Assembly: GCA_023129255.1 (NCBI GenBank)
Contig: JAGMCH010000007.1
Span: 1-43,465 of the forward strand
Source: Dehalococcoidales bacterium
GTDB taxonomy: Bacteria > Chloroflexota > Dehalococcoidia > Dehalococcoidales > BS750m-G39
Direction: 5' to 3'
Length of the DNA: 43,465 nucleotides
Positions 17,742 to 19,395 of this stretch are shown here, piece after piece. Below the pieces are notes generated by a model that worked only from the letters and a program-made list of their open reading frames with translations, did no database searches and was not told the DNA's origin. Within the stretch, counting starts at the first letter, position 1. The number at the start of each line of letters is the position of its first letter. Position numbers and translations under genes: made by a program.

Positions 17742-17782
17742 CCCTTAGGGGTATTGACAGTCGCTCACATAAAGTCTATATT
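17742..17782 (+). promoter_or_regulatory. Strong sigma70 promoter with adjacent palindrome, upstream of the permease operon
   Basis: TTGACA (17754-17759) and TATATT (17777-17782) are separated by exactly 17 bp. Immediately upstream lies CCCTTAGGGG (17742-17751), a palindrome similar to the TAGGG/CCCTA boxes near 23.2 and 26.1 kb. Transcription should begin near 17789, leaving a leader of about 225 bases before the GTG at 18016. Confidence 0.7.
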
Positions 17783-17788
17783 ATTTCT

Positions 17789-17899
17789 AATATGCGAGGT
17801 AGCCTCAAAATAACATATTCTGCTCGTGGGGTGTGGTGATGGGGATGGGACGAGGGCGCTGCAATTGCCTTGGATGGCAGGTGGCAGCGCCCTTTTTGT
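17789..17899 (+). promoter_or_regulatory. Structured leader ending in an intrinsic terminator (attenuator or riboswitch candidate)
   Basis: Within the predicted 5' leader there is a small hairpin GAGG-TAG-CCTC, then CTCGT (17823-17827) able to pair with ACGAG (17850-17854) around a G-rich loop. A perfect 10-bp stem AGGGCGCTGC (17853-17862) / GCAGCGCCCT (17884-17893) followed by TTTTGTT comes next. The CTCGT/ACGAG pairing shares two bases with the foot of the terminator stem, so the two may compete. A terminator inside a leader is typical of attenuation. I do not recognise a known riboswitch class. Confidence 0.55.
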
Positions 17900-18015
17900 T
17901 GGGTAGTTAGGAGTTAAAGACGATAAAATTTAGAAAAGGGGGGATTGAGTATAAGGAAAACTAAAAAGTGATTTTATCAGCCAATTACTAAAATTTTTAT
18001 GAAAGGAGTGATTAA

Positions 18016-19395
18016 GTGGCAAAAGAAGAAAAGGAATTAGCGGGGATGGATGCACTGGTAAGGGACTATGAGAGAGCCCCGGTGCCTGAGGAGAGGCAAA
18101 AGAGCTGGTATAACATGGGTATGGTGTGGGGCGGCGTTGCTGCCTGCGTAGTTTGCCTTTTGGTGGGGGGCATGGTCGGGTTCTGGCTCGATCTTAAGAC
18201 CGCCGCAATCGCAGTAATCTGTGGCAGTCTCATAACCACGGTAATCGGTGCCATTGCTGCAGTGGTAGGGGCACGGCTGAACCTGTCAACGCCGATGATA
18301 GCTAGATTTGCCTTCGGCAATAGGGGGGTTATTGTAGTGGCTGCTGCCATCGCCATTGGCTGCTTTGGCTGGTTCGCCTTTCAGCTCGGATTTTTCGGTG
18401 TGACATTTCAGGCGGCAACGGGGATTATGACCGGGGTTGCCCCGGGGATGGTAGGCTTATGGATAGCTATAGTAATCGGTGGCATACTGATGACAGTTAG
18501 TGCCATCTTCGGCTATCGGGCTTTAGCCTGGCTGAGCTTAGTTACCGTACCCATAATCCTCGCTCTGTGGATATATTCACTGGTTCATGTCTTGGGTCAG
18601 TATTCCTGGAGCGAGCTGCTGGCACACGCACCAGCAGACCCACAGACACTGGCGGTTGCAATCTCATTTGTGGCTGGCGGATTCATGGTTGGCGCGGTGA
18701 TTACGCCCGATGTTAGCCGTTATGCTAAGAGCGCTGGGCATTCGGTTTGGGGTGTGATTCTCGGCTTCTTTGTTATCCAGGCTGTGCTTATGTACATGGG
18801 GGCAATCCTGGCTCATGCCGTCGGTGACTGGAACATGGTAAACGTTATGCTCGGGCTCGGTTTGGGTACCGCTTTTGGTATTATTGCCATGCTGGTATTG
18901 ATTCTGGCCCAGTGGACAACGAATGACAATAACCTGTACTCGGCGGCGTTATCCTTTTCCGTGATATTTAGAGGTGCACGCAAATGGTGGCTAACCGCCG
19001 CTGCTGGCGCGCTCGGCATAATCCTAGCTATGCCGGAGCCTGTGAATATATGGGGCCACTTCCCAGAGTTTATATCGTCTCTCTGCATTTTGATACCACC
19101 TATAGCCGGGGTTTACATAGCTGACTACTTCTTCATAAACCGGGACTTTTACAAATTTGAGAACCTGCCTAAAGTAGCCAACGCTCGGTGGTTGATGCTG
19201 GCATCATGGGCAGTTGCCTCGTTTATCGGTTTCTGTACTACGCCTGCGGGGGCGAGCATAGGCACACTCGGCTGGTTCAACATAACCACAATCCCGGCAA
19301 TTGACACCTTTCTAATAGGCTTTTTCCTGGCATTAATCGCAGGCTGGATGTATAAGAAAGCTAAAGGAGGATGGCCGGAAACTACACCTGCATAG
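18016..19395 (+). CDS. NCS1-family nucleobase/hydantoin-type permease
   Basis: The 459-residue protein is an integral membrane transporter with about 12 hydrophobic segments. The N-terminal cytoplasmic ERAPVPEERQKSWYNMGMVWGGVAACV, the MIARFAFGNRG segment, GFMVGAVITPDVSRYAKS and LAQWTTNDNNLYSAALSFS are characteristic of the cytosine permease (CodB)/allantoin/hydantoin (Mhp1) branch of NCS1. It imports a nucleobase or hydantoin-like compound with a cation. The GTG start has a good GAAAGGAG site. It leads an operon with a racemase, aminopeptidase and DUF917 gene, so the substrate is likely a cyclic ureide or amino-acid derivative rather than a nucleobase. That last step is inference. Confidence 0.88.
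   Translation: MAKEEKELAGMDALVRDYERAPVPEERQKSWYNMGMVWGGVAACVVCLLVGGMVGFWLDLKTAAIAVICGSLITTVIGAIAAVVGARLNLSTPMIARFAFGNRGVIVVAAAIAIGCFGWFAFQLGFFGVTFQAATGIMTGVAPGMVGLWIAIVIGGILMTVSAIFGYRALAWLSLVTVPIILALWIYSLVHVLGQYSWSELLAHAPADPQTLAVAISFVAGGFMVGAVITPDVSRYAKSAGHSVWGVILGFFVIQAVLMYMGAILAHAVGDWNMVNVMLGLGLGTAFGIIAMLVLILAQWTTNDNNLYSAALSFSVIFRGARKWWLTAAAGALGIILAMPEPVNIWGHFPEFISSLCILIPPIAGVYIADYFFINRDFYKFENLPKVANARWLMLASWAVASFIGFCTTPAGASIGTLGWFNITTIPAIDTFLIGFFLALIAGWMYKKAKGGWPETTPA

Follow-up and report, generated by a model that had tools for sequence, protein, structure and literature searches.

A dispersed family of leader cassettes in Dehalococcoidia, with a tiny upstream ORF beside an intrinsic terminator, as candidate ribosome-gated attenuators

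In Bacillus subtilis, read-through into vmlR is decided by initiation on a three-codon upstream open reading frame (uORF; Met-Ile-Asn), the peptide of which can vary (MDN, MDK, MRK) (PMC9226507), and in the bmrB leader of the bmrBCD operon of the same species the loss of leader translation raises termination (PMC4191407). The leader family described here shares with vmlR a very short uORF bearing a Shine-Dalgarno (SD) sequence ahead of an intrinsic terminator (PMC9226507), and with bmrB an intrinsic terminator that lies inside the leader ORF (PMC4191407).

Layout of the leader before the NCS1-type permease

The window, by which we mean the whole stretch of 43,465 nucleotides analysed here, comes from a 1.3-Mb Dehalococcoidia MAG. 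The features of the leader and of its surroundings are given below, with two related genomes, G002 and G010, as references.

17754–17782, + strand: promoter, with the -35 TTGACA at 17754–17759, a 17-nt spacer and the -10 TATATT at 17777–17782
17785–17813, + strand: AU-rich 5' box, TTCTAATATGCGAGGTAGCCTCAAAATAA in the window and nnCCAACATGTGAAATAACCTTAAAA in the family consensus, defined from alignments of the copies with the consensus taken relative to the -10
17828–17838, + strand: Shine-Dalgarno-like G-rich segment, GGGGTGTGGTG, assigned from its duplex with the anti-SD and from the family-wide SD enrichment
17839–17910, + strand: short uORF from ATG 17839 or the in-frame ATG 17845, M-G-MGRGRCNCLGWQVAAPFLLGS-stop, running across the terminator
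17852–17897, + strand: intrinsic terminator, with the 5' arm at 17852–17862, an inner hairpin TTGCC/GGCAG, the 3' arm at 17884–17894 and the T-tract at 17893–17897
17901–18015, + strand: distal 5' UTR reaching the permease start, 92% identical to that of G002 and partly common to the cassette-less G010
18016–19395, + strand: NCS1-type permease (PF02133), the first gene of the operon and the putative regulated gene

The near-perfect promoter that an earlier note on this DNA had pointed out is present, TTGACA-17-TATATT giving 11 of 12 matches, and so is the GC-rich hairpin with a T-tail that it placed well before the permease. The hairpin lies about 70 nt past the -10, is formed by GGGCGCTGC/GCAGCGCCC at 17854–17862 / 17884–17892, counts 11 pairs including an A-U and G-U foot, and is directly followed by TTTTT (17893–17897). 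Compared with dinucleotide shuffles, the folding of the window leader reaches a z of -2.2, with 3 of 200 shuffles equally good. The AU-rich 5' box lies just past the probable transcription start. The SD segment is G-rich, not AGGAG, and at the uORF start that the script selected its anti-SD duplex amounts to -9.1 kcal/mol; the uORF ATG stands 15 nt (17839) or 9 nt (17845) ahead of the terminator arm, like most copies of the family. A search of the + strand from the terminator to the permease start found no promoter-like site. Behind the permease the operon continues with an Asp/Glu racemase, an M29-like protein and an S-Me-THD (DUF917) protein. On the other hand, the pairing of CTCGT (17823–17827) with ACGAG (17850–17854), also put forward in the earlier note, is not supported: G002 reads CTCGT/ACAAG, which breaks one pair, and the helix is not conserved in the family.

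A small palindrome, CCTNAGG, at 17742–17752 (CCCTTAGGGG in the window, CCTCAGGGG in G002) adjoins the -35 and might serve as an operator. Within the distal UTR, the stretch 17923–18016 contains a second SD-like site and a mini-ORF (17945–17971, MSIRKTKK) that starts with TTG in the window and with ATG in G002; this region resembles the start region of the permease, which would fit a duplication of the initiation region.

Searches of genome contigs for further permease orthologues returned only those of G002 and G010, and a close copy of the leader precedes the gene only in G002, which belongs to another genus of the same family. The leaders of the window and of G002 are 85.5% identical, a value that as evidence alone is not exceptional among the other intergenic regions of both genomes, and the coding sequences are 81% identical; the similarity ends about 50 bp upstream of the promoter. 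The G010 permease, a 70% identical protein, is preceded only by a promoter and the distal UTR, with no cassette, so that this orthologue does without the leader, which argues against a riboswitch for the NCS1 permease. With only two sequences, covariation between the window and G002 remained at chance level. A two-sequence antiterminator, in which CCUC/GAGG becomes CCUU/AAGG, offers one compensatory pair but was dropped as no better than chance (2 observed against 3.1 expected), and a leader peptide starting at ATG 17792 was discarded since a stop interrupts it in G002 (ATG TGA).

At the DNA level, the permease gene of G002 matches that of G010 better (90.6%) than that of the window (81%; L022 and L023 against 18016–19395). 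The leader, common to G002 and the window and absent from G010, disagrees with this gene tree and was therefore either lost in G010 or exchanged. By eye, positions ~3000–3260 of L022, on the other strand and before a gcvT-like gene upstream of the G010 permease, resemble a tandem glycine riboswitch.

Spread and anatomy of the leader family

A covariance model built from the window copy and the G002 copy (R1, two sequences) gave full-length matches in many genomes of the order, with E-values down to 4e-7 besides its own seeds; a second locus in the window's own genome was matched at 4e-7, and in the aligned matches the similarity extends beyond the terminator. Of the 156 genomes (85 genera) of the order, 59 (45 genera) carry leaders of ~120 nt according to the model R2, which was rebuilt from 41 copies and leaves the promoter outside. 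The window's genome has 7 copies and G107 at least 23. In the sample of the class the leader also occurs in the families f51 and f81. The phylum sample of 271 genomes yielded no match outside the class, and the complete genomes of family f9 contain no copies. The earlier note had recognised no known class, and the Rfam search agrees with it: Rfam 15 gave no match at gathering score in the window or in 15 further loci, permissive searches were likewise empty, and no published description of the family was found in the open-licence literature. Two cassettes are 68% identical when they come from one genome and 58% when they come from different families; the flanks of copies in one genome are unrelated (score 0.38, random 0.375), which together with the similar cassettes defines a dispersed unit of ~150 bp with sharp ends. 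That the leader belongs to a dispersed, apparently undescribed family of cassettes across an order of Dehalococcoidia is well supported, and the case is strong for the family, its cis position and its terminator.

The cassette consists, in this order, of a TTGACA promoter, the conserved AU-rich 5' box, an SD with the start codon of a tiny ORF and the intrinsic terminator, the family consensus being gGTATTGACAAA...AGGAcTAnAnT, CCAACATGTGAAATAACCTTAAAA, a purine-rich segment, the start codon and AAGGGCACTGGAACCGCTA...GGCGGTGGCTGGTGCCCTTTTT. A perfect TTGACA stands at the expected distance in 92 of 119 copies, mostly with 17-nt spacing, and as the promoter lies outside R2 this result is independent of the model. 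An ATG 4–22 nt before the terminator arm is found in 114 of 124 copies against 63.8 expected in shuffles, and such an ATG with an SD pairing at least -5 kcal/mol strong in 96 of 124 against 33.3, although the relatedness of the copies remains in these expectations and the ATG, being inside the modelled consensus, is not independent of the search. The commonest start position is 9 nt before the arm, and the three frames are used 68, 26 and 27 times. The peptides vary widely: some are as short as MK or MRK, others reach MKQGHWNR or beyond, and stop codons fall before the arm, in the loop or past the terminator. MKQGHWNR itself was considered as a conserved peptide and rejected: it is common, yet in many copies a stop comes early or another frame is used. 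Since peptides and stops vary and the place of the start is kept, the conserved feature is the initiation site beside the terminator, not the peptide.

Conserved covarying structure is confined to the terminator hairpin, with 10 two-sided changes against 2.9 in shuffles among 41 copies; in the same 41 copies RNAalifold returned no conserved helix outside the terminator, an alternative antiterminator included. Of the check proposed in the earlier note, by homologues and covariation, the first part thus came out positive, with a family across the order, and the second for the terminator hairpin only. Lack of conservation in relatives, which that note had named as speaking against its proposal, is contradicted by the family of copies.

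In 95 of 119 copies the gene that follows is co-oriented; it starts at most 150 nt from the leader end in 89 of these 95 and at most 60 nt in 60, a gap too short to hold another promoter after the terminator. Among 84 downstream proteins 106 Pfam families were counted, none in more than 5 proteins, and no common pathway emerged from the Pfam assignments. Many of these proteins are lipoproteins, and the others include FAD oxidoreductases, LRR and TPR proteins and the NCS1 permease; recurring ones form 13 clusters of relatives, most but not all of which span different genomes. Control by premature termination, as proposed in the earlier note, is supported by this conserved and repeated unit of promoter, leader and terminator directly upstream of co-oriented genes. 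The evidence does not support a riboswitch for the NCS1/DUF917 operon, as the leader stands before many genes of unrelated function and shows no conserved aptamer-like structure beyond the terminator. Indeed, a riboswitch calls for a covarying structured aptamer and for targets in one pathway, and the family offers neither.

An AGGA just ahead of the -10 (17771–17782 in the window) occurs in 52 of 101 leader promoters against 1 of 32 other TTGACA promoters of the window's genome, the two promoter sets being drawn from different genome mixes; it could be a promoter-specific DNA element or reflect shared ancestry. Moreover, among the 101 copies in which the -35 is good, 63 carry an ATG very near the 5' end of the RNA, 8–17 nt past the -10, and in 50 of these 63 a stop follows as codon 2 or 3 (ATG-TGA, ATG-AAC-TAA, ATG-AAA-TAA), ATG 17792 of the window being an exception. 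A match of the 5' box to the tsaD coding sequence in G152 and G020 was at chance level.

A possible ribosome gate and its alternatives

Judging from the sequence, attenuation by the leader is likely. As expected of an attenuator, the gene is preceded by a leader that has its own promoter and an intrinsic terminator, and the SD and start codon are, on the sequence level, placed so that a ribosome there could affect the terminator; a ribosome-controlled antiterminator, also typical of attenuators, has no counterpart among the 41 copies, in the form of a conserved helix outside the terminator. The best current explanation, we infer, is a ribosome gate. RNA polymerase would start at the TTGACA promoter and by default stop at the terminator; a ribosome or 30S subunit on the uORF would cover the foot and the 5' arm of the terminator, the hairpin could not form and the gene would be transcribed. 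Direct occlusion of the terminator by the ribosome would then take the place of an antiterminator structure, and transcription of the gene would be set by ribosome loading, or by ribosomes stalled at the uORF start, and not by a peptide or a metabolite aptamer. That the family consists of cis-acting transcription attenuators gated in this way by ribosome loading on a tiny uORF has, in our judgement, an even chance of being correct. In Escherichia coli a terminator 30 bp past a start codon was only ~10% affected by translation, as the ribosome arrives late (PMC4824070), so that a ribosome gate needs a pause of the polymerase or slow transcription; no RNA polymerase pause signal was identified. 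The model also leaves the strongly conserved AU-rich 5' box unexplained, which may be a binding site for a factor or a mask for the SD.

The 5' box is the starting point of two other explanations. A cis attenuator could be read there by a factor acting in trans (an RNA-binding protein, a NusG-like antiterminator or a small RNA), the uORF being secondary or a helper; conservation of the box without conserved structure, and its place within the first nucleotides of the RNA, would suit contact with a protein or an RNA. We regard this as unlikely, as it leaves the SD and start codon beside the terminator in nearly all copies unexplained and no candidate factor emerged. Alternatively, the box could sequester the SD, CCUUAA pairing with a UUAGG-like SD until a small molecule, an ion, temperature or another signal frees it, a mode that would be riboswitch-like in a broad sense. 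Paired with its own SD, the box does form a slightly stronger duplex (-8.10) than after an exchange of partners (-7.78, sd 0.20), but the effect of ~1.6 sd can arise from the relatedness of the copies, RNAalifold shows no helix between box and SD, and the targets share no pathway, all of which makes such a mask very unlikely.

Two further readings dispense with regulation of the downstream gene. Since a promoter, an SD, a start codon and a terminator belong to every unit and a genome can contain many of them, the short transcripts could themselves be the product: small RNAs of ~110 nt, or mRNAs for micropeptides, whose position before genes is incidental; the strong bias towards co-oriented genes, with the short distances given above, and the lack of a conserved peptide render this highly improbable. 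The cassette could also be chiefly a DNA repeat, mobile or copied, by which a promoter is spread, its terminator blocking read-through from upstream. The higher identity within one genome than between families, the sharp ends and the unrelated flanks would fit, but the copies are old and diverged, the promoter lies upstream of the terminator and not after it, and several of the associations with genes are found again in other genomes; we hold this reading to be the least probable of those considered.

For the ribosome gate, a wider role can be proposed tentatively, as a possibility that we would rather doubt than assert: a slow-growing lineage may have spread one cassette before dozens of unrelated genes per genome, with the initiating ribosome as antiterminator, tying transcription to translation capacity. 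If true, this would be a regulon-scale attenuator family, absent from Rfam, in a little-studied class of bacteria from the subsurface and cold seeps, linking ribosome availability to many unrelated genes with no aptamer, antiterminator hairpin or specific peptide. Short leader transcripts ending at the T-tract would be its testable signature in metatranscriptomes.

Comparison with described leaders

Riboswitches and T-boxes in Rfam 15 resemble the family in that genes for metabolism or transport follow a leader that contains an intrinsic terminator, whereas the family has no Rfam match and no conserved aptamer fold. Amino-acid attenuators of the trp/his type likewise place a uORF before an intrinsic terminator; unlike them, the family has no run of regulatory codons (the window peptide included), no conserved antiterminator and no common amino-acid pathway. 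The bmrB leader differs by its longer peptide (bmrB has 162 nt), a predicted antiterminator, its single locus and the sensing of antibiotics (PMC4191407). The vmlR leader relies on anti-antiterminator and antiterminator hairpins and serves one resistance gene under antibiotic induction (PMC9226507); in the family, on the contrary, conserved hairpins of this kind are absent, the uORF borders on the terminator or overlaps it, and the cassette stands before many unrelated genes in one genome.
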